A stretch of 30,956 nt of DNA from a virus (IMGVR_UViG_3300036760_000156:1-30956), one strand, 5' to 3'; positions 10,820 to 27,915 are shown, numbered from the stretch's first letter. The notes: generated from the letters alone by a model not told the origin. A program made the numbers and translations.

Positions 10820-10828
10820 ATTATAGCA
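10820..10828 (-). promoter_or_regulatory. Extended -10 box before the cysteine peptidase gene
   Basis: TGCTATAAT on the minus strand, overlapping the TAG of the gene upstream. The ATG at 10810 is 9 nt after the box, so the transcript would have almost no leader. Confidence 0.65.
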
Positions 10829-11167
10829 CTACCCGCCTTTTTTGGGTATGCGTTCGTCGATGATGGTGGCAAGCCGGGTCAACTGCCTGCCCATTTCCGA
10901 AACCGATCCGTCGAGCGTCTCCACTTTCACGTCGATGGTGTGGATGTGGTTCTGGCTCTGCGTGAGCAGACTCTCGAAGCTGTTCTGTATCTCCGAAAAC
11001 CGCCGCTCGGTCGCTTCGCGCTCGAACTTGATCTGCTGCGCGAAGAGCGCGTCCTTTTTATCGGCGGCGGTCTGCGGATCCTTGAAGTATCGGAACACGG
11101 CGAACACCACCCCGGCGATTCCGAGGACGAAGACGATGTTCGATGTAGTGAGAAGCGATGCCACCAT
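10829..11167 (-). CDS. Membrane-anchored coiled-coil protein
   Basis: 112 residues: one N-terminal transmembrane segment (about residues 9-27, NIVFVLGIAGVVFAVFRYF), then a long charged helix with heptad character (about 40-100). The layout resembles XhlA/gp-type lysis accessory proteins and some holin partners. ATG at 11165-11167 follows the stop of the hub-like gene in a TGATATG junction. A part in lysis or in anchoring the neighbouring peptidase is inference. Confidence 0.55.
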   Translation of the reverse strand: MVASLLTTSNIVFVLGIAGVVFAVFRYFKDPQTAADKKDALFAQQIKFEREATERRFSEIQNSFESLLTQSQNHIHTIDVKVETLDGSVSEMGRQLTRLATIIDERIPKKGG

Positions 11168-11168
11168 A

Positions 11169-12389
11169 TCAAGTATAGGTTTCGGGCACGCTCAACCCGC
11201 CGCTCTGGATGTCGTCGATCCTGCGCGTCTGGTCCGCCTGTATGTCCACGAGTCCTGCGTTCATGAGCTGCACCTCGATCTCGACCGAGTCGAGCGTGTA
11301 CTTCACTTTGGTGATCAGCATGTTGTCGCGGAACACCTGTGAGAGTTCGGACGAGAACCCGTAGAACGAACAGGTGTCTCCCGGCTGGATCGACTCGATA
11401 TCGTACCCCTGTCCCTGTACGTTGTTGTTGTCGAAAATCGTGCAGATCACTTTGATCTCCGGATCCTTGTTCTCGGCGAGGAACTTCGTGCCGATGAGGT
11501 CGGCCGCGTTCACGTTGTCGATGCCGTAGTCGTTCATCGTATCTCCACGGCGTCCGTACTGCGCGATCGATCCGTCGTCCTGGTAGTGCTTATAGACCAC
11601 GCTGCCGCCGGTCTCGCCGTTCCAGACCAGGAGGAAGTTCCGCACCTTTTCCATGGACTCCTCGACCCGCACGCTCGTGAAATGCCGTCCGAAGACGAAC
11701 TGGTGGGTCGGGGTGGTCGGCGTCGGTTTGAACTTCACCGCGCCGGTCTCGTCGACGTAGTAGTACGTTCCCGCGGGCGCCATTTTTTTGAGTATGTCCA
11801 GCGCCTCCCGGTACGTCTTCTGCTCGAACGCGTAGGTGGCCGTGGTGCCGGTGTCCGGGATCTGTGTCGAGTCGTACGATATCTGCGGGCTCGTGTTCTC
11901 CGCGATGTATCGGTCAAGCACGGCGCGCACGAGTTTGCCGACGTCGCATGCCGCGATCGATCCGGCGGTGACCGTAAGCCCGGACGCGTAGGAATAGAGC
12001 GTGGTCTGTGATCCGCTCTTGAGGATATCGGTGGCGAGCTGCGTGTAGAACCCGAGGCACCGTATGGTCACCTGTTCTTTCGCGCCGATGACCTCGCGCT
12101 CGATCATCGAAATGTAGCCGTTATAGATCATGCGCGCGCCGGCGTCGTTGGTCCCCAGCGCCTGCGCCGCGAGCGTGTCGGCGTCGCACACCCTGATCTC
12201 GACGCGATTCCCCACCTTGAGGTCAATTCCTCCGTAGTCGAACACGGCATCCGTTTTGAGCACGCACTCGCCGACGCCCGCGTTCAACTCCTTGTCGAAA
12301 CCGACGAACTCGAAATTCGCCCAGGTTTTGAGGTACGTCCCGGCTGTCGATGACACGATGACGGCGACTGTTTTTTTCTTGATCGCCAT
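11169..12389 (-). CDS. Tail hub / Tal-like protein
   Basis: 406 residues. Position immediately after the Dit-like gene and before the lysis genes is the classical place of the Tal/baseplate hub. The sequence has the gp27-like features of such hubs: an N-terminal beta region with VGNRVEIRV, a middle region of the type FEQKTYREALDILKKMAPAGTYYYVDETGAVKF, and a C-terminal part with IESIQPGDTCSFYG and ITKVKYTLDSVEIEVQL. No peptidase or lysozyme domain is fused. The protein likely forms the trimeric tip of the tail through which DNA passes. The start ATG 12389 is four bases from the preceding stop. Confidence 0.75.
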   Translation of the reverse strand: MAIKKKTVAVIVSSTAGTYLKTWANFEFVGFDKELNAGVGECVLKTDAVFDYGGIDLKVGNRVEIRVCDADTLAAQALGTNDAGARMIYNGYISMIEREVIGAKEQVTIRCLGFYTQLATDILKSGSQTTLYSYASGLTVTAGSIAACDVGKLVRAVLDRYIAENTSPQISYDSTQIPDTGTTATYAFEQKTYREALDILKKMAPAGTYYYVDETGAVKFKPTPTTPTHQFVFGRHFTSVRVEESMEKVRNFLLVWNGETGGSVVYKHYQDDGSIAQYGRRGDTMNDYGIDNVNAADLIGTKFLAENKDPEIKVICTIFDNNNVQGQGYDIESIQPGDTCSFYGFSSELSQVFRDNMLITKVKYTLDSVEIEVQLMNAGLVDIQADQTRRIDDIQSGGLSVPETYT

Positions 12390-12393
12390 GCGG

Positions 12394-13704
12394 TTATAGG
12401 TACGTTTTCGTGTAGACCACCGTGTGCTTCACCGAAAAAGTGTCCGGCTCGCCGCCGTACCTGATCCTGAAGACGAAGTCCGGATCCGACCAGTCAGCGT
12501 AGGTGCCGCCGCTGTCGGCGGAGGTCATGGCTTTTCCGTTCTGATAGTCAAGTCCTTTGTCCGCGACCACGCCGTAGACGGTGTAGTAGTTGCTGCCGTT
12601 CAGGGTCGCGGCCGCACTGATCACGATCCAGTACCGCGTGTTCCCTGAAAGCGTCCATAGGTTGGTCGAGTATTTCGTGTAGTACGCCTTCGAGGTGACG
12701 CTCACCGCCGTGATCGTAAAGGTGGCGTTCGCGTCCGCAAGCGTGCCCGACGGTTTGCCCGCGTTGTCGGTCTCGATCCGCACCGTCATGTTGCCCGGCG
12801 TTCCGGTTTTCTCCAGCATGAGCGTGATCCCTTTGAACGTCGCATCGGTGTAGGGGACGATGAAGCTCTGCGCCTTGCGTTTGGTGGTCGCGTCAAGCGT
12901 GTCGCCGGTGGTCGAGTCGCCGGTCACCGTGTCGCTCGTCGACTGGTTCACGATGCCGCCGCCGGTGATCTCGACGTTGTTCGTGCCGATCGCGAACCGC
13001 GGGAACACGCCGTAGAACTTCCCCTCGGTGAAATGGTCGGATGCGATATCCTCGGTCACCTTTTTGAGGAGGCAGTCGATGATGATCTGGTCTGCCTGAA
13101 ACCAGGACGAGTCGGTGCGGGTGACCACGATCTTTTCTCCGGTGTCGGTGTTCTTGTACTGGATCCCTTTGACCTTGGTGGTCGTACTCCCCATTTCGAT
13201 CGTGATCTTCGGTTTGGCCGGTTTCGATCCGGCCTCGTCGAAGCTGTCCGTGCCCGGGCCGCTGGTCAACTGGATCACCACGGCGTTCCGCGCGGTGGTC
13301 GTGCTCGTTCCCTTTCCCTCTCCCGAGAGCACCCTGAACTCGGCCGTCCACGGACAGAACTTGAGGTTGAAGTGGTCCCGATTGAACTCGTGCTTGACGC
13401 AGCTCGCCACATACCGCCGCGTGCTGCCGTTCCAGTCGATGTCGAGGTTTTTTTCCGTCCGCGAAAACAACTCCTTCATCGTGTCTATCTGATCCTCCAG
13501 AAGTGCTTGCGTCGTGCCGGTGATGATGCCCTGAAGCACTATCGACTTGGTGCCGTAGTGCTCGTCGATGAACGCCTCGCCGTCTTCGCGGGCGACCGGT
13601 AAGGACGCGATCATGCGCTCGGCGGCGGACTCGTGTTTGACGAACCGCGGCACGTAGGTCGTGTTCAGTATTTCGGTCGAGTCGAATTGGATGGATGCTG
13701 CCAT
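12394..13704 (-). CDS. Dit-like distal tail protein with inserted ligand-binding-like domain
   Basis: 436 residues. Residues about 1-140 resemble the N-terminal Dit domain (short beta-strands, RYVASCVKHEF). Residues about 140-265 form a second beta domain (PKITIEMGS ... IIIDCLLKKV ... FPRFAIGTNNVEI), like the Dit galectin domain. Residues about 270-425 are a separate beta-sandwich with AQSFIVPYTDATFKGITLML, GTPGNMTVRIETDNAGKPSG and TRYWIVISA, the pattern of choice-of-anchor/carbohydrate-binding-like modules. The protein returns to a final Dit-type strand, VVYTKTYL. It is therefore an evolved Dit with an extra binding module placed before the last strand, likely contacting the host surface. 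Confidence 0.75.
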   Translation of the reverse strand: MAASIQFDSTEILNTTYVPRFVKHESAAERMIASLPVAREDGEAFIDEHYGTKSIVLQGIITGTTQALLEDQIDTMKELFSRTEKNLDIDWNGSTRRYVASCVKHEFNRDHFNLKFCPWTAEFRVLSGEGKGTSTTTARNAVVIQLTSGPGTDSFDEAGSKPAKPKITIEMGSTTTKVKGIQYKNTDTGEKIVVTRTDSSWFQADQIIIDCLLKKVTEDIASDHFTEGKFYGVFPRFAIGTNNVEITGGGIVNQSTSDTVTGDSTTGDTLDATTKRKAQSFIVPYTDATFKGITLMLEKTGTPGNMTVRIETDNAGKPSGTLADANATFTITAVSVTSKAYYTKYSTNLWTLSGNTRYWIVISAAATLNGSNYYTVYGVVADKGLDYQNGKAMTSADSGGTYADWSDPDFVFRIRYGGEPDTFSVKHTVVYTKTYL

Positions 13705-13707
13705 AGG

Positions 13708-15474
13708 TTATTTTCCGGCTACCCCGTGGAGGGTCGCCTGTCGGTTCAGCTGTGCGATGGTGTCTGAAATGATTTTTTTTATCCCGTCGTCGCCTGCCAC
13801 CCCGCCGTTGAAGTTGAAGATCAGACTCTGCGCCCCCGGGGACGCGCCGATCGCCCCGAGGAACGAGGTCCCCTCGCTCGTGATCGTTTTGTAGAAGTCA
13901 GGCGAGACCACCATGGTCTGGATCTTGTCGAGGTATGCCTGCCGCGCGTCGATCTCCTCCTGCATCAGTTTCTTCTTCGCCTCGTTCTGATTGCGGATGT
14001 CGTCGATCTCGCGATTGTGTGCGTCCTGTAGTATGTCGAACTCGTTTTTCTGCAGCTCGCTCTGCAGATCAGAGACAACCCCGCCGGCGCGGTCGAGTAT
14101 CGCCTTCTCCGTTGCCTTCTGCTTCTCGAGGTCTGCCACCTTGTCGCGCCAGCCCTGCCCCATGGTGCGCTTCTCGTCGGCGATCTGCTTGTCGATGGTG
14201 TCCATTTTGTCCTTCGCCTTGCGCGCCAGGTTCTCCACGTCGAGCGTGTATTTTTGGTTCGACTTATTGATGCTGTCAGAAAGCCCGGCGTCGAGGTCGG
14301 CGAGGTTCGCGCGCAGCGAGTCGATCGCCTTCGACTGCTCGTCGAACGATGAGACGACGCTCTTTGAGAAGTCCTGGAATGATTGCGCCAGCTTGTCCGC
14401 CGCCTTGCTCGCCTCGTCGGCTCCCTTTCCCAGTCCGGCGAAGTTCGGGTTTGGATCGGTAAGCGGTTTGAACCCTTTGTTCAAGTTGAGCGCGGCGTCG
14501 GTCGTGTCGCGGATCTTGTTCGCGAGGTCGGTGATCTCTTTGATGCTCTGCTTGGTCGTGTCTTCAACCGGGGTAAGCCCGAGCCCGAGCTTGTTCAGTC
14601 CGCCGATGATGAAATTATTGAACTTCGTGGAAAGGTTCTGTATGCCGGTGCCGACCGTTTTTCCGGTCAGCATCCAGGTGTCGGGGTTGACCGCGATCGC
14701 TATCTTTGCCGAGAGTGATTTAGCCCACTCGTTCGAGTTCTCGTTCGAAATGTTCAAAAAATTATTGAAGTTCGTGAGCGCGACGTTCAATGCCGGTCCG
14801 AACGTGTCGCCGACCTGCTCCTTGAAGTTCGCCCAGGTCTGCGTCATGACCTGCATCTGTCCGGCGTTGGTCTTCGCGAACGTCGCCGCTGATCCGGTAA
14901 GCCGTACCTGCAATGCGTCAAGCGCCTCGGCCGATCCCGCGCTCGCCTTCAAGTTGATGCCGTATTCTTTGAGCACGCGCACGTTTCCGCCGAGCACGCT
15001 CATGAGCGTGCCGGTGGCGGACTCGAGTGATGTGCCGGATGCACGCGCCATATCCATCGCGAGCCGCGTGAGGTCCTGCTGTTTCCCGACGTCCTTTGTC
15101 GATTGCGCGAACCGCGAGAGCGAAAGCACCGCCTGCTCGTCGTCGAAGCCGAGCTGTACCGCGGCCTTCCCGAACTTCTCGTACTTCGGCATGACCTCGT
15201 CGACCGCGAGCCCGGCGTTCCGGATGTTGTTGGCCGCGATCGCGAGCGTCGCGGCCGCGTCGGTCGATGCCTGGATGGATTCCTTGAAGAACTCGAACAC
15301 CTTGAAGCCGGCGTAAAGCGCGACGCCGGCCAGTCCGAGTTTCGCGAGCGACGACGTCAACGATCCGGTGCCCTGCTCGAGCCCCTTCATCTTGTCGCCG
15401 ACGGATTTGAAGACGCCGCCGGTCTTATCCTCGGCTCCTACCTTGATTTTCAGGTTTGATTCAAAGTCGGCCAT
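13708..15474 (-). CDS. Tail tape measure protein
   Basis: 588 residues from MADFESNLKIKVGAED (ATG 15472-15474), chosen because AAGGA lies six bases upstream; the ATG at 15492 is 18 nt earlier. It has a hydrophobic segment near residues 43-65 (LAKLGLAGVALYAGFKVFEFF), the TP901-type core (ARASGTSLESATGTLMSVLGGN, LTGSAATFAKTNAGQMQ, FGPALNVALTNFNNFL) and a long coiled-coil C-terminal half. Tape measures set tail length; at the usual rule of about 0.15 nm per residue this one predicts a tail near 90 nm. Its start overlaps the end of the frameshifted chaperone frame by 14 nt, the normal arrangement. Confidence 0.92.
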   Translation of the reverse strand: MADFESNLKIKVGAEDKTGGVFKSVGDKMKGLEQGTGSLTSSLAKLGLAGVALYAGFKVFEFFKESIQASTDAAATLAIAANNIRNAGLAVDEVMPKYEKFGKAAVQLGFDDEQAVLSLSRFAQSTKDVGKQQDLTRLAMDMARASGTSLESATGTLMSVLGGNVRVLKEYGINLKASAGSAEALDALQVRLTGSAATFAKTNAGQMQVMTQTWANFKEQVGDTFGPALNVALTNFNNFLNISNENSNEWAKSLSAKIAIAVNPDTWMLTGKTVGTGIQNLSTKFNNFIIGGLNKLGLGLTPVEDTTKQSIKEITDLANKIRDTTDAALNLNKGFKPLTDPNPNFAGLGKGADEASKAADKLAQSFQDFSKSVVSSFDEQSKAIDSLRANLADLDAGLSDSINKSNQKYTLDVENLARKAKDKMDTIDKQIADEKRTMGQGWRDKVADLEKQKATEKAILDRAGGVVSDLQSELQKNEFDILQDAHNREIDDIRNQNEAKKKLMQEEIDARQAYLDKIQTMVVSPDFYKTITSEGTSFLGAIGASPGAQSLIFNFNGGVAGDDGIKKIISDTIAQLNRQATLHGVAGK

Positions 15475-15963
15475 GGCGTTTCCTTGTTTCAATCTTCTTA
15501 GTGATGCCCATGACCTCGATCATCTCCTGTACGAACCCCCGGGGCTGCTCCATAAGCTCGCGGTACGTCCACCCGAGCTCCCGGCACAGCATGTAGTTCA
15601 GATACTCGGTCGGCGCCTCGGTGGTCACTCCCTCGAGGAAGAACACCAGCCGCTTGCTCAGCTCGCTTTTTTTTTAGAGGCCTCGTCGAACGCCTTGTTG
15701 AACTCGTCGATGATCACCGTGGCGATCTCGCGCGGAAGCGACTTGACCGTTTCTTCGGTCACCGGCAGGACCGTTCCCGCGTCGTCCGTCAGGTTCCACG
15801 AGACTATCAGTTTCGTGATGGTGTTGATCCCCTTCTGCGAGCTGTCCTCGATCTTGAGTCCTTCGAGGAACTCGTACCAGGACAGCTCACTCTTGATCTT
15901 CACCACCAGGTCCGTGTTCGGGATCGCGATGTCTTTCGTTTTGATGAGGTCAGACAATTTCAT
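15461..15963 (-). CDS. Tail assembly chaperone gpGT, -1 frameshift product
   Basis: The short chaperone frame runs into nine A residues (15675-15667) just before its stop. A -1 slip in this run moves ribosomes into a second frame that reads SELSKRLVFFLEG onward and ends at 15461. The fusion is about 167 residues. The second frame has no ATG of its own (only a GTG at 15646), has a stop just upstream of the slip site, and ends within the start of the tape measure gene. This is the conserved gpG/gpGT arrangement of long-tailed phages; both products chaperone the tape measure during tail assembly. Confidence 0.85.
15658..15963 (-). CDS. Tail assembly chaperone gpG-like
   Basis: 101 residues, MKLSDLIKTKDIAIP to EASKKKAS. 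Acidic and helical, with the SELSWYEFLEGLKI segment typical of the tail assembly chaperones found between tail tube and tape measure. The ATG at 15963 is in an AAAACACCTATG context. An AGGAGGAG lies 13 nt upstream, rather far for a ribosome site. Termination follows the slippery A9 run. Confidence 0.85.
   Translation of the reverse strand: MKLSDLIKTKDIAIPNTDLVVKIKSELSWYEFLEGLKIEDSSQKGINTITKLIVSWNLTDDAGTVLPVTEETVKSLPREIATVIIDEFNKAFDEASKKKAS
15667..15675 (-). promoter_or_regulatory. Slippery A9 site for -1 frameshifting
   Basis: Minus strand TCT AAA AAA AAA GCG AGC TGA. The run contains A AAA AAA heptamers in the correct phase for a -1 shift, and the 0-frame stop follows two codons later. Confidence 0.8.
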
Positions 15964-15989
15964 AGGTGTTTTTATTCTCCTCCTGTGGG

Positions 15990-17195
15990 TTAGTACGCGG
16001 TGCCGGCGGTCCGGTTCACGAGACTGATCTCAATGGACTTGGCGTCGCCCGAGTCGTAGAGCGCTTCGTATTTTTGCTTATCGAATATGTACTGCCCCAC
16101 GTCGAGCGGCTCCTCGTCGGTCATGGTCTTCACTTTGTGATATTTGACCGTCAGGAGCTCGGAGGTGGTGAGGTCGGTCTTGATGAACCGCCCCGTGGTG
16201 ATCATGGTCACCGCCTGCTTCACGTTCTCGAGCCACTTCTGATAGAGGGTCGGGTCGGCGAAGAGCGTGTGCAGTTCGAGGTCGGCCTCCTTGACCTGGT
16301 TCAAGAGCACGGACGGTCCGGTTGCGCCGGATGCCGGCGCGTCGAGCAGGTTGTTCTTGAAGTTCGTGACCACGTTGTAGCTCGGCGTCGCGGTCGTCCG
16401 TGCCGCCGCGGCGGTGTCAGCAGCCGATGAAGTCGCTCCTACTCCCACGAGCGTGTTGCCCATGTAGAACGGCTCGAGCTGCGTGCCGTAGCTCGGCGTC
16501 TGCGCCAAAAGGAATATCGCGTTCCCAGCCGCCGCCGTAATGGAGGTCGATGCGAACGTGATCGTCTTGCCGTCCGCGTTGATAGTGAGGATCGTGAGGT
16601 CGACCGTACCGCTGTCCTTGACCAGCCGGATCACGTCATTCACCACCAGCCCGTCGGTCGGCCGCAGATCGTAGTCGGTCGAGAACACGAGGGTCGTCAC
16701 CGATCCCGAAAGCGCGAGCCCGAGGGATGCGGTGTAGAACTGCCCGAGCGCCTTCACTGATACCGTCGCCACCATTTTGTTGTCCTGGAAGTCGATCTTG
16801 AGGTTGTCCGCCCGCGCGCCGTAGATCCGTTGCGCGAACGCGCCGCGGCTGATCTCGAGCGAGTAGCTCTTGCCGTCGCCGGGCGTGAACGGATGCGTGT
16901 ACCCATCTCCCGCGCTCCCGCTGGTGGATCCTTTCGCGTAGGTCATGTTCAACATGTGCCCAAGCGCGTCAGGGTCGGCGTAAATGGTCAGGTCTCCCTC
17001 GATCTTACGCGGTCCTTTCAAAAGTTCGTCCGATTTCCAGTCGAGACCCTTGAGGCGGCGATCCGCCATGTAGCTCGGGTTCACCCGGATGCTCTCGCTC
17101 ACGAGCGCGATGAACGTCGTCGGGATGACCGGCGTGGTCGCCGCCGACTGCGGCTTCACCGCGAGGTATGATTTGTCCGCCAAAAAGTTCGACAT
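15990..17195 (-). CDS. Major tail tube protein
   Basis: 401 residues. It lies directly before the tail chaperones, where the tail tube gene is expected. The N-terminus (DKSYLAVKPQSAATTPVIPTTF) and the segment ADRRLKGLDWKSDELLKGPRKIEGDL, followed by PDALGHMLNMTYAKG, match long phage tail tube proteins with a beta-barrel core. The central Thr/Ala-rich part (about residues 150-290) may be a surface insertion. The C-terminal part ends with SIEISLVNRTAGTAY. The protein polymerises into the tube around the tape measure. Confidence 0.8.
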   Translation of the reverse strand: MSNFLADKSYLAVKPQSAATTPVIPTTFIALVSESIRVNPSYMADRRLKGLDWKSDELLKGPRKIEGDLTIYADPDALGHMLNMTYAKGSTSGSAGDGYTHPFTPGDGKSYSLEISRGAFAQRIYGARADNLKIDFQDNKMVATVSVKALGQFYTASLGLALSGSVTTLVFSTDYDLRPTDGLVVNDVIRLVKDSGTVDLTILTINADGKTITFASTSITAAAGNAIFLLAQTPSYGTQLEPFYMGNTLVGVGATSSAADTAAAARTTATPSYNVVTNFKNNLLDAPASGATGPSVLLNQVKEADLELHTLFADPTLYQKWLENVKQAVTMITTGRFIKTDLTTSELLTVKYHKVKTMTDEEPLDVGQYIFDKQKYEALYDSGDAKSIEISLVNRTAGTAY

Positions 17196-17211
17196 AGTGC
17201 GTGGTTATTTT

Positions 17212-17370
17212 TTAGGATTCTTCTTCTTTCGGTTTCTCCTTGCGCGGCTCGACGCGTTCGAAGTTCCCGTTCCTGAACGTGTCCGGCAATTCGACGGTCT
17301 CGCCGGATTTGATGATCCCGTGTCCCGGGACGTTCAGATCTTCTTTAGTGACGTTCTTGTATTTCGCCAT
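17212..17370 (-). CDS. 52-residue conserved phage protein
   Basis: ATG at 17368-17370, stop TAA at 17212-17214. The product starts MAKYKNVTKEDLNVPGHG and contains KSGETVELPD, a pattern I know from small phage proteins encoded beside tail completion genes. The C-terminus is charged (EPRKEKPKEEES). An extended -10 box lies 8 nt before the ATG. It is missed by gene finders with a 60-codon cut-off. Confidence 0.7.
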   Translation of the reverse strand: MAKYKNVTKEDLNVPGHGIIKSGETVELPDTFRNGNFERVEPRKEKPKEEES

Positions 17371-17378
17371 AGTCGTTC

Positions 17379-17387
17379 AGTATAGCA
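17379..17387 (-). promoter_or_regulatory. Extended -10 box before the 52-residue gene
   Basis: TGCTATACT on the minus strand, one base (G) after the stop codon of the tail terminator gene, with the ATG 8 nt after the box. Confidence 0.65.
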
Positions 17388-17388
17388 C

Positions 17389-17829
17389 TTAGTAGTTCGG
17401 CAGCACAGCCACCGCCTCGATCGAAAAGTTCGCGAAGTTCAGGGTGCCCGGTTTTGAGACGAAATTGGCCGTATAGTCGACCACCCGCACTATCTCGACC
17501 TGCCCGCCGAGGTCTTTGTCCTGGTCGAATGCCTCGATCACCGCGTCCACCGCCTCGAGCATCGCCTCGTTCGCCTCGTCCGCGTTCTTGGCCTGTTCGC
17601 TCTGCTCCTGATAGAGCGCTACCTCGAAGACGAACGTGCGCTCGTTCCGGTGCGTGTCTATCACCTTCCCGCTCGACCCCGCGATCCGCACGGTGGCCGA
17701 CGGGTATCCCGAAAAGTCACCATGCGGGTATCGCGCCACTTCAACAAAAATATCGTTCGAGTCCGCGTCCTGGATCGCTTCGAGTTTCGTCACGATCAAG
17801 TCCCTGATTTCCGCCTGCTTGGTGGCCAT
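17389..17829 (-). CDS. Tail terminator / minor tail protein
   Basis: 146 residues, MATKQAEIRDLIVTKLEAI. The alpha-beta pattern, with helix, then strands around YPSATVRIAGSSGKVIDTHRNERTF, then a helix (ANEAMLEAVDAVIEAF) and a final strand pair ending in IEAVAVLPNY, fits the tail terminator (gpU-like) family. It sits between the gp10-like protein and the tail tube, the usual location. The start is preceded by GATGCACCTATG and follows the previous stop by 12 nt. Confidence 0.7.
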   Translation of the reverse strand: MATKQAEIRDLIVTKLEAIQDADSNDIFVEVARYPHGDFSGYPSATVRIAGSSGKVIDTHRNERTFVFEVALYQEQSEQAKNADEANEAMLEAVDAVIEAFDQDKDLGGQVEIVRVVDYTANFVSKPGTLNFANFSIEAVAVLPNY

Positions 17830-17841
17830 AGGTGCATCGTA

Positions 17842-18306
17842 TCATTGCGCCATCGTTTTGAGTATCGCCCCGATCGCGTCATTCCAGATCTTTTCGACCG
17901 CGACCTTGCTCCGTTGTATCGCCCGCCTGAAGAACGGATTTGGTTTGGTTCCGGGGTGATGCACGAGTTTGCCGAAGAACTGCCCGGTCCGGACGTTCGC
18001 GAGCGCACGCGCGTTCACCGGACGGATCAGGTGCGGCGCGGTTCCCTCATGCACGAACAGCGAATAGCCCGCGCGTGATTCAATCACGCCGGACAATTCG
18101 CCGGTCATTCTCGATCGGATGTTCTGCCGCAGGTTGCCGCCGCCGGTCTGTTTGTTGACCGGCGCCTCTTTGATCGCGGTGTTCTGTATTTCGCCGACCG
18201 ACCGCCGCACCGCCTCGTTCATCTTGATCTTCGCCATGATCGGCTCCTTGCGTATCGCTGCGGTGAGTTTTTCCAGCCCATCGATTTTCACGGTGAGCGT
18301 CACCAT
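17842..18306 (-). CDS. HK97 gp10-like neck/tail completion protein
   Basis: 154 residues. MVTLTVKIDGLEKLTAAIRK, the middle EIQNTAIKEAPVNKQTGGGNLRQNIR and the ending GTKPNPFFRRAIQRSKVAVEKI are the hallmarks of the HK97 gp10 family: helix, then APVxTGxLRxSI, then PFFxPA. These act in joining head and tail. The ATG follows the previous stop as TGATATG, so translation is coupled. Confidence 0.85.
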   Translation of the reverse strand: MVTLTVKIDGLEKLTAAIRKEPIMAKIKMNEAVRRSVGEIQNTAIKEAPVNKQTGGGNLRQNIRSRMTGELSGVIESRAGYSLFVHEGTAPHLIRPVNARALANVRTGQFFGKLVHHPGTKPNPFFRRAIQRSKVAVEKIWNDAIGAILKTMAQ

Positions 18307-18307
18307 A

Positions 18308-18631
18308 TCAAGCTAAAAACTTCCGGATCCGCACCTCCATGTGCCGATCCTCGCCGAGGAAGTTGAACTTCTCGATGCCGACGACCTTGTAGACCGTGTC
18401 CCCTTCTACGATCCGGTCTCCCTCGAGGATGTCCGCCTTGTCGCAGAACATGATCCAGTCCTTGCCGAAACTTCCGGCGATGTCCTCGCCGTATGATTCG
18501 TCGAGCGGCTGTATGTGGCACGCCACGTCCTCGAGGAATGTCTGGTACTCCTCGGTGTCCACCTCGCCGCTTTCGTCGTTCTCGGCGAGCCGCAGCACGT
18601 CGACGGTTTTGTCGTAGTTGGTTTGGATCAC
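18308..18631 (-). CDS. Head-closure / head-tail joining protein
   Basis: 107 residues from a GTG at 18631 whose bases overlap the TGA of the connector gene (GTGA junction). The longer frame upstream is a shadow of that gene. Product: IQTNYDKTVDVLRLAENDESG, then EEYQTFLEDVACHIQPLDES, then LEGDRIVEGDTVYKVVGI. This beta-rich order, with a DRIVxGDxVYKV motif, is typical of SPP1 gp16-like head closure proteins. The start is an inference from coupling; no ATG is available in this frame. Confidence 0.7.
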   Translation of the reverse strand: MIQTNYDKTVDVLRLAENDESGEVDTEEYQTFLEDVACHIQPLDESYGEDIAGSFGKDWIMFCDKADILEGDRIVEGDTVYKVVGIEKFNFLGEDRHMEVRIRKFLA

Positions 18632-19206
18632 ACGGTTTCTTTGATGTAGGTGGCGAGCGTCTTGTCGATGCGCTCGAAGTCCTGCCACTGTTTCTCGTCC
18701 TTGTAGGTGACGGTGTAGCGGCCGATCGTCATGCTCTGCACTTCGCCGTCGGCGTTCAGCGAGTAGTTGATGATCCCCGCGACGAGCACAGTCGCCACGG
18801 TCCGGATGTCCGCCGGCACGTCCACCGAGTATCCCCACTTCGCCTCGACCGTGATGTTCTGGAACCCGCGGGTGAAGCGCCTCCCGGTGAGCTGCACCTT
18901 GGTCTTTGGCGTCTTATTGGCGGGGTAGAGGACGTAGTCGTTGTCGTTCCCCACCGTGAGCTCCTCGTCGCCTATCTTGACCTTGGTCACCTCCACGTTG
19001 TCGTCGATCAGAAGCCACGCGGTGCCGTCGCCGTCGAAGACGCGCTCGGACTCCTCGGTGTCGGCAAGGAAGTTCCGCTCTGTCGCGTTGTCGATATACT
19101 GCTCGATCTCCTCGATCCACGAGTCCACTTGCGCGTGGAAGCTCACGTCGATGTCGATCAAGAGGTAATTCTCGACCTCCTGCCTTGATGTGTATCCTTT
19201 CGGCAT
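18628..19206 (-). CDS. Head-tail connector (gp6-like) protein
   Basis: 192 residues: an N-terminal helical part (YTSRQEVENYLLIDIDVSFHAQVDSWIEEIEQYIDNAT), a beta middle, and a C-terminal helical part (PADIRTVATVLVAGIINYSL ... FERIDKTLATYI). This is the HK97 gp6 / phage head-tail connector pattern that docks onto the portal. A TGCTATAAT box ends 9 nt before the ATG, so the connector-to-tail genes appear to have their own promoter. Confidence 0.8.
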   Translation of the reverse strand: MPKGYTSRQEVENYLLIDIDVSFHAQVDSWIEEIEQYIDNATERNFLADTEESERVFDGDGTAWLLIDDNVEVTKVKIGDEELTVGNDNDYVLYPANKTPKTKVQLTGRRFTRGFQNITVEAKWGYSVDVPADIRTVATVLVAGIINYSLNADGEVQSMTIGRYTVTYKDEKQWQDFERIDKTLATYIKETV

Positions 19207-19215
19207 AGCGATTTT

Positions 19216-19224
19216 ATTATAGCA
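19216..19224 (-). promoter_or_regulatory. Extended -10 box before the connector gene
   Basis: TGCTATAAT on the minus strand. The TAA stop of the repeat-protein gene lies inside the hexamer. ATG is 9 nt downstream. Confidence 0.7.
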
Positions 19225-20206
19225 CCTTCCCGATGGGTCGGTAGGGATTGAGCGGCTTTCGTTTGTACGGGTAGATCCGCATCACGTACTGCATCGACTT
19301 TTCTATCGCCTCCGGTCCGACAATTTCGTAGAACAGCGACTTCGTGATCGCGGGCGACGGCTTGACCGCATAGGTCAGATCTTTCGTCTCTGCGCTTATC
19401 GTCTCGATCTCGTAGGTGACGTCCTTGGTTTTCGCGGCCGGCGTGATTCGTACCGTGTACTCGATCCCTTTCGTGACCACCTCAGCCGCTTTGACCTCGT
19501 AGATCAACCCCTTGGTTTCGGCCGAGGGCGTGGTTTCGACCCTGTACGTCATTCCCTTGGTCAGACTGCCAGGAGTCACTATTTCGTACTGGAGCCCCTT
19601 GGTGCTCGATATTGTGCCTCTAATGGCATACTGGGCGCCCTTCCCGATCGCTGTTGGCGTCGTTTCCACCTCGTATTGCAGTCCCTTGGTTTGGGCACCC
19701 GAAACCTCCACCCGATAGATCAGCCCTTTGGTCACGGATCCGGCGACCGTTACCTCGTAGATCAGTCCCTTTTGAACCGCCGCCGGGGTGGTCTCGATCT
19801 CGTAGGTGAGGGACTTGGTGTGCGCGCTCGGTGTCGTCTCGACTTCATAGATCAGACCCTTTCCGATCGCGCTCGGCGTGGTTTCGATTTCGTAACGCAG
19901 CGACTTGGTGATCGCGTGCTCGGTGTCTATCGCGTACTCGAGTCCGAGCTGTACCGATTGCGCCGACTCGACCCGGTAGGTCAATCCTTTAGTCACGGCG
20001 TGTGAAGCGTCCACCGCATACTGCAACCCCTTGGTGATCGCGGCGGTGGTCTCCACTTCGTACGTCAACGATTTCGTGACCGCTCCCGCGGCCTCGACCG
20101 CGTACTGCAAGGACTTCGTGACGTCCACCGGCGTCACGATCACCGCTCCGGCCGCCGCCTGGAGCCCACCGTAGTCTATGGATCCGAACGTGCCGTAGCC
20201 GTACAC
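19217..20206 (-). CDS. Tandem-repeat protein with 20 short beta-type units
   Basis: 329 residues from a GTG at 20206 (no ATG near). After a short N-terminal part (MYGYGTFGSIDYGGLQ) the chain is made of about 20 units of 14-15 residues with consensus TKGLxYEVETTPSA: K-[GS]-[LM]-x-Y-x-[VI]-E recurs from about residue 30 to 308. The C-terminus is basic (YPYKRKPLNPYRP). Alternating hydrophobic residues in each unit suggest one beta strand per repeat, as in a beta-solenoid or long fibre. It lies between an adhesin-like gene and the connector. Probably a virion fibre or decoration protein; no family is recognised. Confidence 0.8.
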   Translation of the reverse strand: MYGYGTFGSIDYGGLQAAAGAVIVTPVDVTKSLQYAVEAAGAVTKSLTYEVETTAAITKGLQYAVDASHAVTKGLTYRVESAQSVQLGLEYAIDTEHAITKSLRYEIETTPSAIGKGLIYEVETTPSAHTKSLTYEIETTPAAVQKGLIYEVTVAGSVTKGLIYRVEVSGAQTKGLQYEVETTPTAIGKGAQYAIRGTISSTKGLQYEIVTPGSLTKGMTYRVETTPSAETKGLIYEVKAAEVVTKGIEYTVRITPAAKTKDVTYEIETISAETKDLTYAVKPSPAITKSLFYEIVGPEAIEKSMQYVMRIYPYKRKPLNPYRPIGKVL

Positions 20207-20217
20207 AAGTCAGCTGG

Positions 20218-21411: not shown

Positions 21412-21423
21412 AGTGCCTTGGTT

Positions 21424-21840: not shown

Positions 21841-21852
21841 GGTGTTTTTAGT

Positions 21853-21878
21853 AAAAAGGATCCCGTCGCCGGGATCCT
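21853..21878 (-). terminator. Intrinsic terminator after the head genes
   Basis: On the minus strand a perfect 9-bp stem AGGATCCCG / CGGGATCCT with a 4-nt loop (21878-21857) followed by TTTTT. It separates the head genes from the adhesin/connector genes. Confidence 0.85.
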
Positions 21879-21938
21879 CTTTGCTCGGCATTGAGTTGCC
21901 CGGTCTCCGCGCATTGAGTTGCGCCGGTCAGGTTGTCC

Positions 21939-22124
21939 TTATTTCTTTTTCTCCGCTCCGCGTTTCAATGCCGCCGTCTGCACGGCCTTGAACGCTTCGC
22001 CCTGATGCTCCGCGTCCGCCGGCGTCACGCCGGTCTCCTTGCAGACGTGCGCGACGTATTTCGCCTCGTCCGCGAACCCCGCCTTGCAGAGTCCGCAGAC
22101 ATGTTTCGGTGCTGTGGTTCCCAT
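21939..22124 (-). CDS. 61-residue zinc-finger protein
   Basis: Start ATG 22122-22124 (MGTTAPKHVCGLCKAGF) in a CCTATG context; the frame above it is the end of the upstream gene read out of phase. C-x2-C, then KYVAHVC gives a C2HC-type finger like a truncated C2H2 unit. The tail is lysine-rich (KRGAEKKK). A DNA-binding or regulatory role is possible; it is odd to find it among virion genes. Confidence 0.65.
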   Translation of the reverse strand: MGTTAPKHVCGLCKAGFADEAKYVAHVCKETGVTPADAEHQGEAFKAVQTAALKRGAEKKK

Positions 22125-22128
22125 AGGT

Positions 22129-22632: not shown

Positions 22633-22669
22633 AGTAGTTGGTATGCGTGATTAGGTTCTTATCCGACCT

Positions 22670-23107
22670 TTAGATCTCGTGTTCGATGTAGCTGATCTTG
22701 ATCGTGATCTCGCCGGTCCCGTCCTGTTCGGGCTGGCTCCCCGCGATGATGCCGACCGCCTTGTCCTTCACGTCGTCGAACCCGCCGTCGAGTTCGATGC
22801 CGCTCCCGGACTCGTTCCCGAACTGGTGGGTGATCTTGTCGTGCGAGCAGTTCAGCACACCCCAGTGCAGACTGTTCTGCATCGCCTCGGCGCCCGATCC
22901 GTCCCCGTACTTGAGGGTGAGCGGGTGCGCGCCGTAGTTATCCGATCCCTGCTTCGAAATGGTGGTGACCGAAAGGATCTGGATGAACCGGTTCGGTCCC
23001 GGCGACGGGATCAGCTCCTGCCATGTGTCGAGTGCTCGGATCTCTTCGTGAGTGAATTGCTTGACCGCGAACTTGTTGACGTGTTCGAAGATTTTTACGT
23101 CTCCCAT
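22670..23107 (-). CDS. Putative head decoration/minor capsid protein
   Basis: 145 residues from MGDVKIFEHVNKFAVKQF; ATG 23105-23107 in the ACTATG context; the frame above it is a capsid shadow. Beta-rich, with TISKQGSDNYGAHPLTLKYG and ITIKISYIEHEI. It directly follows the major capsid gene and a strong hairpin. No family recognised; decoration is inferred from position. Confidence 0.6.
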   Translation of the reverse strand: MGDVKIFEHVNKFAVKQFTHEEIRALDTWQELIPSPGPNRFIQILSVTTISKQGSDNYGAHPLTLKYGDGSGAEAMQNSLHWGVLNCSHDKITHQFGNESGSGIELDGGFDDVKDKAVGIIAGSQPEQDGTGEITIKISYIEHEI

Positions 23108-23153
23108 AGTGTGTTTTGTTGGTTTGGAATTAGAGTCCTGTCGTCCGTAAGCG

Positions 23154-23186
23154 CCTGATTCGGGGAGCCGAAGCTCCCCTATCAGG
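23154..23186 (-). terminator. Stable two-part hairpin after the capsid gene
   Basis: On the minus strand CCTGAT, a base, GGGGAGC-TTCG-GCTCCCC, two bases, ATCAGG. The inner stem closes on C(UUCG)G, the most stable RNA tetraloop. No U-run follows, so it may protect or process the capsid mRNA 3' end, or reduce read-through, rather than fully terminate. Confidence 0.65.
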
Positions 23187-23204
23187 CTCCTACCTGTCCC
23201 GCGA

Positions 23205-24509
23205 TCAGGACTGGTGAGCGCCCGCCTGCAGCACGGTGAGTGCGGCTGGGAGAGCGACCACGTAGCCGACGCGCTCGACGATGCGCAGGGCAACCATGTC
23301 CTGCTCGGCGAGGTTGATGACGGTAGACCCGTCCGTGTCGGTGATCGTCGCCTGGTCGAGCAACTTCACGCGAAGCTGCTGCTTGTCGCCGAACACGGCT
23401 CCCTGCTTCAAGTTGCCGAAGAGCACGTATGCGTCGCCTTCCGAGACGTCTCCCACTGCCGGGAATGCGTCAGAGACTTCGTACGGGTAGTTCCAGATAG
23501 TCCCCGGCAAGCCGTTCGACGGCTGCGCGTAGATGTACTGGCCGTTCTTGTCCTTGAGCTTCCGGATCACCGAGAGCACGCTCCGGCTGAAGTAGTACTT
23601 CGCACCCGGAAGCGCGCCGGTCGGGGTCGCGTCCTGCATGTCCAGGAGGTCGTCCGCGGTGAGCTGCGTCGCGTCGCCGGATGCCTGCGGCACCTGGTTC
23701 ACTGATCCATTGTTCAGAACTCCGGTCCACGGTGCGCCAGTGCCCATGAAGAACTGGATGTCCTCTTCTTTGGATACCGCTTCCGCGAACAGCGTCGAAA
23801 TGAGCTCCGTCAGGTTGATCGCGCTGTCCTCGAGGATCTCCTCGGTGAACGGTACGATCGCGGCGAGTTTCTTCAACGTCTGAGTCACCACCGAGAACTT
23901 CGGCTGGGTGGACTTTTTCTTCGCGCCCTCGCCGGTCCAGAACACGGACACCGAGGTGCCGAGCGCCGGGACCGTGCGTGAGTTGCCCGGTCCGGAGAAC
24001 GGCAGGTAGAACATGTCGCGGCGCGCGAGACCGTACTGGGTCTGTGCGATCCGCAGCACCTCGTTCCGCAACTCGGTCGGGATCAGCAGACCCGCGTCCG
24101 CGTCGTCCGGCGAGCTGCCGGTCGTGTCGGTGGTGAGCGCCTTGGCCGCTGCCTTGTCGCCGCGCATGAGCGCCTTCATGAACTGGCGGGTGACGCTGTC
24201 CTTGTTCTCGTCCTTTGCGACCGGTTTTCCGTCGAGCGCCTTTGCGCGCTGCTCGGCGGCGCCGTCGGTGAACTTCTTGAGGATGTCAGACGATATCTCG
24301 TCCACCTTTTTCGCGAGCGCGTCCTGCACGTGCTGGTTCACCAGCGTCTTCACGGCCTCGACGTCGATCGCTTTTTCCTCGCCGACGATCTCGGCGAACT
24401 TTTCCTTGTCCGCATCGGTAAGCTTCTCGACGTTCTCCTTGAGGAACACCTTTTCCTCGTCCGAGAGGTCGTCCGCTTCTTTTGCGATGACTTCTTTCAG
24501 TTTCAACAT
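23205..24509 (-). CDS. HK97-fold major capsid protein
   Basis: 434 residues. Residues about 1-125 are a charged, helical delta/scaffold domain (KEVIAKEADDLSDEEKVFLK) removed by the protease encoded upstream. The mature part opens near DADAGLLIPTELRNEVLR and has TVPALGTSVSVFWTGEGAKK, the KKLAAIVPFTEEILEDS E-loop/spine region and a C-terminal DMVALRIVERVGYVV strand, all characteristic of HK97 capsids. Start ATG 24509 is 17 nt after the protease stop. It self-assembles into the icosahedral shell. Confidence 0.95.
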   Translation of the reverse strand: MLKLKEVIAKEADDLSDEEKVFLKENVEKLTDADKEKFAEIVGEEKAIDVEAVKTLVNQHVQDALAKKVDEISSDILKKFTDGAAEQRAKALDGKPVAKDENKDSVTRQFMKALMRGDKAAAKALTTDTTGSSPDDADAGLLIPTELRNEVLRIAQTQYGLARRDMFYLPFSGPGNSRTVPALGTSVSVFWTGEGAKKKSTQPKFSVVTQTLKKLAAIVPFTEEILEDSAINLTELISTLFAEAVSKEEDIQFFMGTGAPWTGVLNNGSVNQVPQASGDATQLTADDLLDMQDATPTGALPGAKYYFSRSVLSVIRKLKDKNGQYIYAQPSNGLPGTIWNYPYEVSDAFPAVGDVSEGDAYVLFGNLKQGAVFGDKQQLRVKLLDQATITDTDGSTVINLAEQDMVALRIVERVGYVVALPAALTVLQAGAHQS

Positions 24510-24526
24510 ATCGGGAATGTGTGTCG

Positions 24527-25696
24527 TTACTTCTTAGCCGACTTTTTGATGTTGAGCAGTTCCTTGATGGCCCTGTTCAGCACCGAGACCCGTATTTCTT
24601 TTTTGCCGCCCTCTTTCCGCGAGGGGTGTTCGACCTTTTTACCAACTTGTGTATCGGCTTCCGTTTCCGCGTTCAGCACCCGGGTCAGGGTCCTGATTGC
24701 GGAACGTATGGTTTCTTTATTGGAGGGCGTGAGCGTCTCCTTTTCTTCCGTGCTCACGGCTTCGATGTTTCCGGTCTCGGCGATCTGCTTCAGCTCGTCA
24801 TCCGTGTACTCCTTGAACGCGGGCACTTCTTTCGCGAATTGCGCGTAGTGCTTCGCGAGGTGCTCGTAGACGCCTTTGCGATCCGCGTCCGGGATCGCGA
24901 CCCCGCCGCGTCCGCCGAGGAGTGCCGCCATGGCCGCCGCTACCCCGCGCCAGACCACTTTGTAATTCGCCTGGTGGTGCGGGAGTTTGTAGGCGGATTT
25001 CAGATCAGGATACCCGTCGCCGTCGTCGTCGTTCTGGCTGTCGTCGTACCACGAATGGATCTTAGCATAGTCGGCCTGGTTGGTGCCGTCGCCCCACACG
25101 TCGGACTCGATCGTGCTCGCGTCCCATGCGGTTTCTTCAGGTGCGGTGGTGTACGGCGAGAACGGCACCACACCCTTCGTCACCGTCCCCTCGAGGATGT
25201 CGAGCTTCTTGAACTTGGCGAGCGCCTCGGCGTTCGCCGGCACGTTCACCACCGAGACTTCAAGAAGCACGTTCTCGATCAGCTTCATGATGTCGTTCCC
25301 GTTGTCGATCTCGTAGATATTGTTCATGAACCCGACCGAGAACGCCCGCAGGTACTTGCCCTGCACGAGCCGGAACGCGGTCGCCGCCACGTCATACTCC
25401 TCGACCGCGAACTTCATCGCGCCGGCGAGGTCGCCGTTCTCGAAACCGATCCGCACCATCTGCGCGAGCGGGAAGCTGTAGTTATCGTGGCACCAGAGCA
25501 CCACCGGGTTCTTCAAAAAGTCGTCCAGCTTCCACCCCTCTTGCACGACGACCTCGCCGTGACGGTCGATCGCAGCCGTCGAAAATATCCCCTCCACGAT
25601 GTAGTTCTTCTGGTCGACCTGCTTGGCCTCGAATGTGTAGGATTTGACCACGCGCTGGCTCGAAAGAAGTGTCTTTTTCATGGTTCCTTGCGGCAT
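24527..25696 (-). CDS. HK97-type prohead protease with C-terminal extension
   Basis: 389 residues. The U35 protease domain is in the first 190 residues: IVEGIFSTAAIDRHGE, the catalytic histidine in LWCHDNYSFPLA and the catalytic serine in LRAFSVGFM. The second half is an added region (HHQANYKVVWRGVAAAMAALLGG...VYEHLAKHYAQFAKE), found with some phage proteases, plus a charged tail that may act as scaffold. The protease cleaves the capsid delta domain during maturation. Start: ATG 25696, 8 nt after a TGCTATACT box; a second ATG at 25681 with AAGGA three bases ahead is an alternative. Confidence 0.9.
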   Translation of the reverse strand: MPQGTMKKTLLSSQRVVKSYTFEAKQVDQKNYIVEGIFSTAAIDRHGEVVVQEGWKLDDFLKNPVVLWCHDNYSFPLAQMVRIGFENGDLAGAMKFAVEEYDVAATAFRLVQGKYLRAFSVGFMNNIYEIDNGNDIMKLIENVLLEVSVVNVPANAEALAKFKKLDILEGTVTKGVVPFSPYTTAPEETAWDASTIESDVWGDGTNQADYAKIHSWYDDSQNDDDGDGYPDLKSAYKLPHHQANYKVVWRGVAAAMAALLGGRGGVAIPDADRKGVYEHLAKHYAQFAKEVPAFKEYTDDELKQIAETGNIEAVSTEEKETLTPSNKETIRSAIRTLTRVLNAETEADTQVGKKVEHPSRKEGGKKEIRVSVLNRAIKELLNIKKSAKK

Positions 25697-25704
25697 AGTT
25701 TTGA

Positions 25705-25713
25705 AGTATAGCA
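25705..25713 (-). promoter_or_regulatory. Extended -10 box before the protease gene
   Basis: TGCTATACT on the minus strand in the 39-nt gap after the portal gene; ATG 8 nt downstream. Confidence 0.65.
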
Positions 25714-25735
25714 CTTTTAGGTTCGCTGCGGAACT

Positions 25736-27895
25736 CTACTCGAGGAACGCCGGCCCGAGTACGCACCGACAGTTCGGCTCTTGCGGGAACTGCAAGCCGT
25801 TCGAGAACGCCGCGTCAAGCCCGACGATCTCCCCGCCCACGCCGATCCCGTCCTGGTGCTCGTCGCGCACGCGCGAGTCGCCGGCATTGATCCATTCCTT
25901 GCCGGTGGCCACTTCGGACTGCTTGAACGCCTCGATCATGCCCTGGTTATTCGCTGCCGTGGCCTCGGTTCGGGCGATCAGCTCGCTCCGGTAGCTCGGA
26001 AACTCGCCGTAGACGTCCGCCACCCGCTTCGAGAGGTCGGCGATCCCCTCGGCCGCGTCCACTCCCTCGGCGAGAGTCGACGCCAGCTTCCCGATCGTTG
26101 TCGCGCTCACTTGCATGGCGAACTCCTCGGCGCGCTGCTTGATGAGCGCACGGATTCGTGCGGTGTCCTTGAAGTCCTCTTGCGGGGCCACCATGTTCAT
26201 CGCTTCTGCCCCGGCTTCTTCGAGCAGCTGCTGGAGGTACGGCGTGATGAACTCTATCGAAAGCCCCTCCTCCTTTGCTGCGTCGTAGATCATCTCTACC
26301 GTCACGGTGACCTTCTTCGTCCGTGCCTTGGTCTTCACGTTCCCGAGCGCGTCCTCGACGCGCGCCTGCTGCCCGGCGAAAAACGCATCGCTCGCGTCCT
26401 TCAGTTTGGCCGCGCTCTGGTCCAGCTTCTTATTGATCATGTTCGCGTACGCGTTCCGCAGTTCATCGCCGACGATGAGCGGCTTCCATGCCTTCTTCCG
26501 CTTCGCGCGCTTGATCTTCTTCCCTGCGAGCGACTTCATCACCTTTTTTTCGAGCTCCTCACGGATCTCCAGCTTCTGCTTCAACCAGAACCGTCCGGCG
26601 AAGTCGTACTGCTTGGGTAGGTTAGTCTGCTCGATCACCCGCGCGTTCTCGTCGGACTGCTTCATCACCTTCGCGGCGAGTGCCTTCTGCTCGGCCTGCG
26701 GCAGACCGCCGACCGCCTGATTGATGAGCGGCATGTAGAAGCTCCACCCGCCTTTGACCGGCGGCAGATTCTCGCGCGCGCGCACCTCGTTGATGAGCAG
26801 ATAATTGTTCACGATCCCCTCGCTGTATTCCTTGAGCTGCAGCTCCCGGTTCTGCGGGGTCATGTCCACGAAGTCGAGGTAGAACTCCTCGCCGAAGTCC
26901 GGGTAGATCAGCTCCTCATTGAGCTTCTCGAAGATCCGCACCACGTCGGGCTTGATCGTCTCCGAGAGGAAAATGTACATGCCCGTCTCCGCGTTAGCGC
27001 GGTTCACGTCCTCCACGATCGACAGGATCACTTTGGGCACCTTGAACGCCACGAGTATGTCGTCTCGCGTGAACTTCTGGCTCTCGATGAAGTCCATCTC
27101 TTTTTGATTGAGCGATATCTGCTCGTACTCCAGTCCGCCCGAGAGGATCGCCACCTTCGAGTTGTTGCCCGGTCCGCGGTACTTCTTGTTCCAGCCGTCG
27201 CGCAGATCGGTCTTCTGTTCGGCGGTGAGTTTGTTCTGCGGGTTCTTGATAAGCGCATCGGGTCGCGCGCTGTTCAAGAAAAAATCACGCTGGTATTCCG
27301 CGGCGAACCCCTCGGTCTGCACCCGGATCTGCGCGGCGCGAAGCGGCGACATGCCGAGGTACGCCGAAAGCGGATCGGTATATTTGAAATGGATCACGTC
27401 CTCGGGCGCGAAGTGCACGATCGCTCCGTCGGATTTGGTGAACTGGTACTCCTTGATGAACGCCGTCGGATCGGTGATGATGGTCACCATGTCCGGCCTA
27501 AGGTTCCAGAGCTCGACCACCCGCCCACCCTTGTTCCGTACCTTGAACCAGAACGCATCCCCGGTGAGCTTCAGGTTGATCATCATCGTCTCCCAGAGCT
27601 CGGACTTCGTCTGGAACGGGTTGGGCCGGTACATGAGGTCAAGCGCCGGGTGCGTGACCACCTCTTTGACGTCTCCCTTGCTGCTCACGATCCGGAAGAA
27701 CTTAGCCTGTGTGCTCGCCACCTTCTCGGCGATCTTCGAGACGCACGCGAACACGTAGAGCGATTTGCCGTACTGCTCGAGGTGTCCTTTGGGCGAGAGC
27801 GTCGTGCCGGTGAGTTTCGCCAAAAGTTCGAGCCCGCCCTCCTGGATCACGTCCTTCTTCCGTGCGATTGAGAAAACTTTGTCGAGGATGCCCAT
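25736..27895 (-). CDS. Portal protein fused to MuF-like head morphogenesis domain
   Basis: About 719 residues from MGILDKVFSIARKKD (ATG 27893-27895). Residues about 1-430 are an HK97-type portal: GDAFWFKVRNKGGRVVELWNL, VIHFKYTDPLSAYLGMSPLRAA, FKVPKVILSIVEDVNRAN, EEFYLDFVDM. A helical linker follows. The last 160 residues carry the Mu gpF-like motif: ELIARTEATAANNQGMIEAF, GKEWINAGDSRVRDEHQ, PNCRCVLGP. Portals form the dodecameric DNA gate; MuF domains act in head assembly and sometimes enter the virion. Fusion of the two is known but less usual than separate genes. Confidence 0.92.
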   Translation of the reverse strand: MGILDKVFSIARKKDVIQEGGLELLAKLTGTTLSPKGHLEQYGKSLYVFACVSKIAEKVASTQAKFFRIVSSKGDVKEVVTHPALDLMYRPNPFQTKSELWETMMINLKLTGDAFWFKVRNKGGRVVELWNLRPDMVTIITDPTAFIKEYQFTKSDGAIVHFAPEDVIHFKYTDPLSAYLGMSPLRAAQIRVQTEGFAAEYQRDFFLNSARPDALIKNPQNKLTAEQKTDLRDGWNKKYRGPGNNSKVAILSGGLEYEQISLNQKEMDFIESQKFTRDDILVAFKVPKVILSIVEDVNRANAETGMYIFLSETIKPDVVRIFEKLNEELIYPDFGEEFYLDFVDMTPQNRELQLKEYSEGIVNNYLLINEVRARENLPPVKGGWSFYMPLINQAVGGLPQAEQKALAAKVMKQSDENARVIEQTNLPKQYDFAGRFWLKQKLEIREELEKKVMKSLAGKKIKRAKRKKAWKPLIVGDELRNAYANMINKKLDQSAAKLKDASDAFFAGQQARVEDALGNVKTKARTKKVTVTVEMIYDAAKEEGLSIEFITPYLQQLLEEAGAEAMNMVAPQEDFKDTARIRALIKQRAEEFAMQVSATTIGKLASTLAEGVDAAEGIADLSKRVADVYGEFPSYRSELIARTEATAANNQGMIEAFKQSEVATGKEWINAGDSRVRDEHQDGIGVGGEIVGLDAAFSNGLQFPQEPNCRCVLGPAFLE

Positions 27896-27906
27896 AGTAG
27901 TTTTAG

Positions 27907-27915
27907 AGTGTAGCA
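27907..27915 (-). promoter_or_regulatory. Extended -10-like box before the portal gene
   Basis: TGCTACACT on the minus strand, 11 nt before the ATG and 6 nt after the terminase stop. The weakest match of the five boxes. Confidence 0.5.

Follow-up and report, generated by a model that had tools for sequence, protein, structure and literature searches.

The stretch of viral DNA analysed here (IMGVR_UViG_3300036760_000156:1-30956, referred to throughout as the window) is a record of 30,956 bases with a G+C content of approximately 60% and essentially all of its genes on the minus strand. It encodes a terminase, a portal protein with an F-like domain, a prohead protease, an HK97-type capsid protein, a head-tail adaptor and a neck protein, and in addition a papain-like peptidase (a weak match), SSB, a ParB-like protein, an SNF2 helicase and RecT. 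The tail and tape-measure genes were assigned from position and length only, and the gene order appears siphophage-like. The subject of this report is a promoter-like element, an extended −10 box, which recurs in gene junctions of the window a few bases before the start codon. All of the evidence is sequence evidence: gene starts are predicted, in part by homology, and the records compared are fragments.

Extended −10 boxes in the window and in related viruses

A preliminary description of this DNA had placed variants of one motif at five gene junctions on the minus strand, 8-11 nt before an ATG. A search for TGCTAYAMT returned exactly these five sites, all on the minus (coding) strand, at 10820, 17379, 19216, 25705 and 27907, where a mean of 0.18 sites was expected by chance and none of 100 dinucleotide shuffles reached five. 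Every site lies in a junction ahead of a real gene, with hexamer-to-ATG distances of 9, 8, 9, 8 and 11 nt respectively. The same description had noted that some boxes contain or touch the stop codon of the gene upstream, which proved correct at 10820 (TAG directly before the box), at 17379 (TAA one base before it) and at 19216, where the TAA of the open reading frame (ORF) 19217-20206 falls within the box. The promoter that it reported before the gene at 3103 is also present. The boxes and promoters of this layout are as follows; fractions refer to homologous starts in the related viruses described below.

27907-27915, minus strand: extended −10 box TGCTACACT, 11 nt before the portal ATG at 27895; box in 12 of 24 relatives
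25705-25713, minus strand: extended −10 box TGCTATACT, 8 nt before the protease ATG at 25696; box in 12 of 30 relatives
19216-19224, minus strand: extended −10 box TGCTATAAT, 9 nt before the adaptor ATG at 19206; box in 6 of 15 relatives
17379-17387, minus strand: extended −10 box TGCTATACT, 8 nt before the ATG at 17370 (52-aa gene); box in 3 of 5 relatives
10820-10828, minus strand: extended −10 box TGCTATAAT, 9 nt before the ATG at 10810 (papain-like peptidase gene)
17836-17844, minus strand: weaker extended −10 box TGATACGAT, 6 nt before the ATG at 17829
3110-3137, minus strand: promoter TTGAAA-16-TATAAT, 6 nt before the ATG at 3103 (early-side gene)
6889-6897, minus strand: TGCTATGAT, 6 nt before the ATG at 6882 (13-codon ORF); overlaps the stop codon of gene 6890-7231

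Automatic gene calling from the first ATG is unreliable in so GC-rich a sequence; starts in the window were therefore curated by hand and those of the relatives anchored by homology. With a box in the window defined as at least 6 of 8 consensus letters at 4-11 nt before the start, 7 of 36 curated starts carry one, and none was found in four control windows farther upstream. No relatives of the papain-like peptidase gene were found in viral contigs. In one relative (L036), TGATAAAAT lies 6 nt ahead of the homologue of the gene at 17829. The 13-codon ORF at 6882 is followed by approximately 300 nt without a clear gene (6590-6897, minus strand), and this region may possibly yield a leaderless peptide or an RNA. 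As a separate observation, CT stands directly before the ATG (CTATG) at 16 of approximately 36 starts in the window, often as AACACCTATG or CACTATG and at boxless starts as well; this context may be a start-site or translation signal.

A search with the capsid protein recovered approximately 55 related viral loci at 34-71% identity, and spacing was counted in 47 mostly non-redundant viral records totalling 601 kb. In these, an ATG lies exactly 6 nt after TGNTATAAT at 27 sites, against a mean of 1.95 per position at distances of 15-54 nt (maximum 5), giving a Poisson P of approximately 1e-21. Neither GTG nor TTG peaks at 6 nt in the same 47 records, nor does the reversed motif give a peak, and an excess of ATA at this distance probably stems from ATATG at 8 nt. 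The positional peak is also obtained with TATAAT alone. Among 20 full records the motif-plus-ATG pattern was matched 46 times compared with 6 for the reversed pattern, nearly always on one strand per record. The 6-nt pattern occurs at approximately 1 per Mb in a background of 60 bacterial genomes and at 45 per Mb in the phage group, making it some 40 times rarer in the former.

The boxes are also tied to particular junctions. Homologous starts in the relatives were placed by tblastn, the motif playing no part in this, and inspected for a box afterwards, a box here being at least 7 of 8 consensus letters at 4-11 nt before the start. The resulting fractions are rough, because the consensus itself determined this threshold and the projection of orthologous starts may at times be wrong. 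Four junctions (portal, protease, adaptor and the 52-aa gene) had been named from the boxes of the window before any counting in relatives. Boxes precede 33 of 74 starts at these junctions compared with 1 of 138 in all other groups, which include terminase, capsid, neck, tail tube, methylase and more (Fisher P 6e-17, the counts being of sequences and not of independent events). The flanking DNA at the conserved junctions is visibly diverged and protein identities are mostly 40-70%, so that box positions have been either kept by selection or repeatedly regained. In the full records of relatives, boxes also stand before methylase-type, ParB-like and several unknown genes, as labelled from a reading of their N-termini.

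Comparison with annotated phages gave no close relative by megablast and only distant matches by tblastn, and the relatives form a previously undescribed group of environmental tailed phages. A genome-wide scan for the host with an alignment of 24 capsids yielded one distant match (24%) in an Oscillospiraceae metagenome-assembled genome, which is no evidence for a host.

Promoter class and predicted leaderless starts

Boxed sites in the group carry the TG of an extended −10 element in 83 of 93 cases, a count partly built in by the threshold of at least 7 of 8 letters, which favours TG, unlike the peak obtained with TATAAT alone. A strong −35 element was sought at the 93 boxed sites and not found, similarity to −35 being near background; TTG is somewhat enriched at −35 with spacers of 14 and 17 in a minority of boxes, arising from TTGTTGACA in a few relatives. 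The combination of TG one base before TATAAT with a −35 that is weak or absent is that of the extended −10 class. On this sequence evidence the boxes are very probably host-type sigma70 extended −10 promoters (TGnTATAAT), mostly lacking a −35, with mRNAs that are leaderless or bear a leader of 0-4 nt.

The boxes had been described as late promoters, and in the strict sense this would imply a phage-coded sigma factor or co-activator, as in T4. The four conserved boxes of the structural region are in keeping with such a scheme, and a uniform TG-extended −10 without a −35 would go well with a factor that takes over the contacts of region 4. However, the sequence is that of the general bacterial extended −10, and the layout is not restricted to late genes, the same motif and spacing being found before 3103 and before non-structural genes of relatives. 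Moreover, no sigma-like or RNA-polymerase-like gene was detected among approximately 20 proteins scanned, about half of the ORFs of an incomplete record. The term late could thus not be upheld, and dependence on a phage-coded factor is unlikely.

Transcription usually starts seven bases after the −10 hexamer. With six bases between hexamer and ATG, the usual start site would therefore be the A of the AUG itself. Pyrimidines occupy −1 in 89% of boxed starts in the relatives and in 69% of the others, which suits a start site at that A. The distances of 8-11 nt in the window predict leaders of 0-4 nt.

Shine-Dalgarno (SD) pairing seems to contribute little. At 4-11 nt before the start, SD 4-mers occur at 10 of 212 starts of the relatives, compared with 15-20 in control windows, and at 3 of 36 starts of the window, and are enriched in neither set. 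Control phages treated in the same way, from annotated starts, gave 43 of 71 for lambda, 51 of 89 for P23-45 and 43 of 56 for TP901-1, with no box peak in any of them; the comparison indicates that the phage group as a whole is not SD-led. Individual genes of the window do look SD-led, namely the terminase gene at 29388, recT at 2149 and a small gene at 9172. A patescibacterial host, considered because the group lacks SD enrichment, is a guess only; no paper was found that deals, for that phylum, with leaderless genes or with the role of SD. Taken together, the 6-nt peak, the conserved junctions and the lack of SD enrichment lend the earlier proposal of leaderless or nearly leaderless mRNAs good computational support.

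Several observations weigh against this interpretation. The distance in the window is 8-11 nt and not 6, so that some mRNAs may have a leader of 1-4 nt. Around half of the orthologous starts of relatives at the four junctions have no box at the threshold used; some of these have degenerate or farther-upstream boxes and some may be mis-projected. Promoters that would leave a leader occur at some genes, such as TTGACA-17-TATACT at 9270-9242, ahead of an SD-led gene, and TTGATG-17-TATAAT at 8721-8693.

It could accordingly be supposed that the promoters are real and the mRNAs not leaderless, either because transcription starts farther upstream or because the true start codon lies farther downstream. 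Distances of 8-11 nt would accommodate short leaders in the window, where start codons are predicted. In most relatives, however, the spacing is 6 nt, at which a later start site would lose the AUG, and in many of them the start codon of portal and adaptor is fixed by homology (offset 0 or 3). We regard leadered mRNAs at these junctions as quite improbable.

It is very unlikely that the likeness to a −10 box is fortuitous and that the motif acts in some other way in RNA or DNA, such as in mRNA processing or in the enhancement of translation. Lying between co-directional genes, the site would be present in read-through mRNA, and a host in whose phages SD sequences are not enriched may use unusual initiation signals; against this, an extended −10 promoter with its start site at A has precisely the layout seen here, in which TG, one free base and TATAAT are followed after six bases by the A of the ATG, with a pyrimidine just before that A. 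A minority of sites also has TTG at −35 with a spacer of 17 or 14. Chance, or a by-product of junctions that are AT-richer than genes in a GC-rich phage and in which promoter-like matches are easily found, is refuted by the shuffles, the positional peak, the reversed pattern, the strand bias, the junction conservation and the control phages, with P of approximately 1e-17 or lower in two separate tests.

Transcript organisation and neighbouring features

Boxes occupy some 5-6 of approximately 20 junctions in the structural region of the window, and none was found before the capsid, neck, tail tube, chaperone and tape-measure genes, either in the window or in the relatives. The structural genes that bear on the arrangement of transcripts, and the one terminator-like element among them, are as follows.

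25736-27895, minus strand: portal fused to a Mu F-like head morphogenesis domain (PF04860, 5e-78; PF04233, 7e-13), downstream of the box at 27907
24527-25696, minus strand: prohead protease gene (PF04586, 3.6e-6), downstream of the box at 25705
23205-24509, minus strand: HK97-type major capsid protein (PF05065, 1.8e-46); no box at its junction in the window, and a box in 0 of 27 relatives
21850-21882 (approximate), minus strand: terminator-like hairpin AAAGAGGATCCCGGCGACGGGATCCTTTTT, between the capsid module and gene 21837
18628-19206, minus strand: head-tail adaptor gene (phrog_442, 2e-20), downstream of the box at 19216

A strict hairpin with a T tract precedes gene 21837 in the window and in 4 of 15 relatives, and strict terminator-like hairpins were absent from every other junction of the homology set. 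One hairpin combined with internal boxes suggests nested transcripts. The preliminary description had favoured many small promoters over one late operon. A single-promoter operon would have no internal promoters, and internal boxes are conserved at four junctions; to that extent the earlier proposal stands. Most junctions nevertheless lack a box and a terminator is found at only one, and on this evidence a nested set of overlapping transcripts is likelier than a series of small independent units. The layout suggests units that would run from the portal on, from the protease through the capsid and three further genes to the hairpin, from the adaptor on, from the 52-aa gene on and from the peptidase on.

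In the mechanism that we envisage, host RNA polymerase would use the boxes and transcription would start on the AUG or 0-4 nt before it, whereupon 70S or 30S ribosomes with initiator tRNA would initiate directly at the 5'-terminal AUG. Within the long structural region, read in one direction, the boxes would re-start transcription and so give rise to nested transcripts serving the portal, the protease and capsid module, the adaptor and neck, the tail module and the lysis-side peptidase. Every unit would gain a strong first cistron for which SD is not needed. Downstream cistrons such as the capsid would be read from mid-mRNA by some other SD-independent route.

Other features were noted in passing. 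On the minus strand at 9280-9418, TGCTATCCT is followed by a very stable fold of approximately 125 nt (−59.9 kcal/mol, z −5.8) with the strong terminator AAAGGATCCCTTCGGGGATCTTTTGTTTTT at its end; it has no Rfam match, and the product is probably a small non-coding RNA. The window as a whole gave no Rfam match and no tRNA. A distant relative (L073, 1516-2000) contains a candidate tmRNA-like gene called by ARAGORN, with the asterisk-marked tag DNQQLIELY. Three TTTATAAATGCTGGTTTCCGGCATTTA-like copies with inverted halves adjoin the lysis genes at 8800-8900 (minus strand) and are a possible operator or origin. In the SSB gene (7655-8095, minus strand), ATA occupies the position at which the initial ATG of three relatives (L104, L103 and L100) is aligned. 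An in-frame stop lies upstream, and ATG, GTG and TTG are all absent up to approximately residue 12; the choice is between AUA as the start codon and a variant in the sequence. At 15640-15670 (minus strand) a run of nine A closes the small gene 15658-15963, which precedes the tape measure, and an open frame (15461-15646) lies beyond the run, a candidate for the programmed frameshift of a tail assembly chaperone. A run of ten G at 30580-30610 (minus strand) divides the DNA methylase frame into 30581-30925 and 29872-30579; a G run is found there in a relative (L056) too, and the break reflects either a sequencing error or phase variation.

Comparison with known systems and biological meaning

In bacteria, a TANNNT box approximately 12 bp before the start is an accepted mark of leaderless genes, and TG before the box replaces the −35 in some lineages (Zheng et al. 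2011, PMC3160421). The genes described here resemble such TA-led genes, as far as sequence can indicate, in having a Pribnow box placed for transcription to start at the start codon: the −10 box is position-specific above background, SD is lacking at these genes, and the first T of the box lies 12 nt before the start in the 6-nt peak and 14-17 nt before it for the five boxes of the window. The known examples are from bacterial and archaeal chromosomes, whereas here the feature is found in a phage group without SD enrichment and at particular homologous junctions. The boxes here also come near the full TGnTATAAT consensus, even in a phage of 60% GC.

The lambda cI transcript is treated as a leaderless mRNA in a review (PMC9031893). 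It shares with the present genes an AUG at the 5' end and a sigma70 promoter abutting the gene, but is that of one regulatory gene in an SD-using phage, whereas several structural genes are concerned here and the arrangement is conserved across a group. Phages lambda and TP901-1 share the order of portal, protease, capsid, adaptor, neck and tail genes of HK97-fold siphophages, and the capsid, portal, protease and terminase families; they differ in having no box before those genes and in using SD. The Thermus phages phiYS40 and P23-45 have leaderless middle or late mRNAs. The middle and late genes of P23-45 use the host RNA polymerase (PMC10770324). This phage differs in its SD-rich starts, in the lack of an extended −10 peak and in having no similarity to the window at the DNA level. 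That phage transcripts are often leaderless has been remarked in a paper on phage AR9 (PMC5312081). What appears to be new is the conservation of predicted leaderless promoters at specific junctions, together with an apparent independence of SD, in a phage group; it would extend a known kind of gene start.

We propose tentatively that the group may be adapted to a host with little SD pairing, and that virion production may be organised as nested units whose first cistrons are leaderless and hold constant positions in the gene order, the remainder being read by an SD-independent route; we hold this to be a possibility that falls somewhat short of an even chance. Leaderless genes are usually tallied genome by genome in bacteria. 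In this diverged phage group the predicted leaderless genes have kept their place in the gene order, an indication that selection acts on the choice of the leading, leaderless cistron. The results suggest that gene callers relying on SD may mis-set starts in this group. They also suggest an expression-level clue to the host, which would be a bacterium that makes little or no use of SD sequences and has an ordinary sigma70. If the proposal is true, these phages would lend themselves naturally to the study of leaderless initiation as a principal route.

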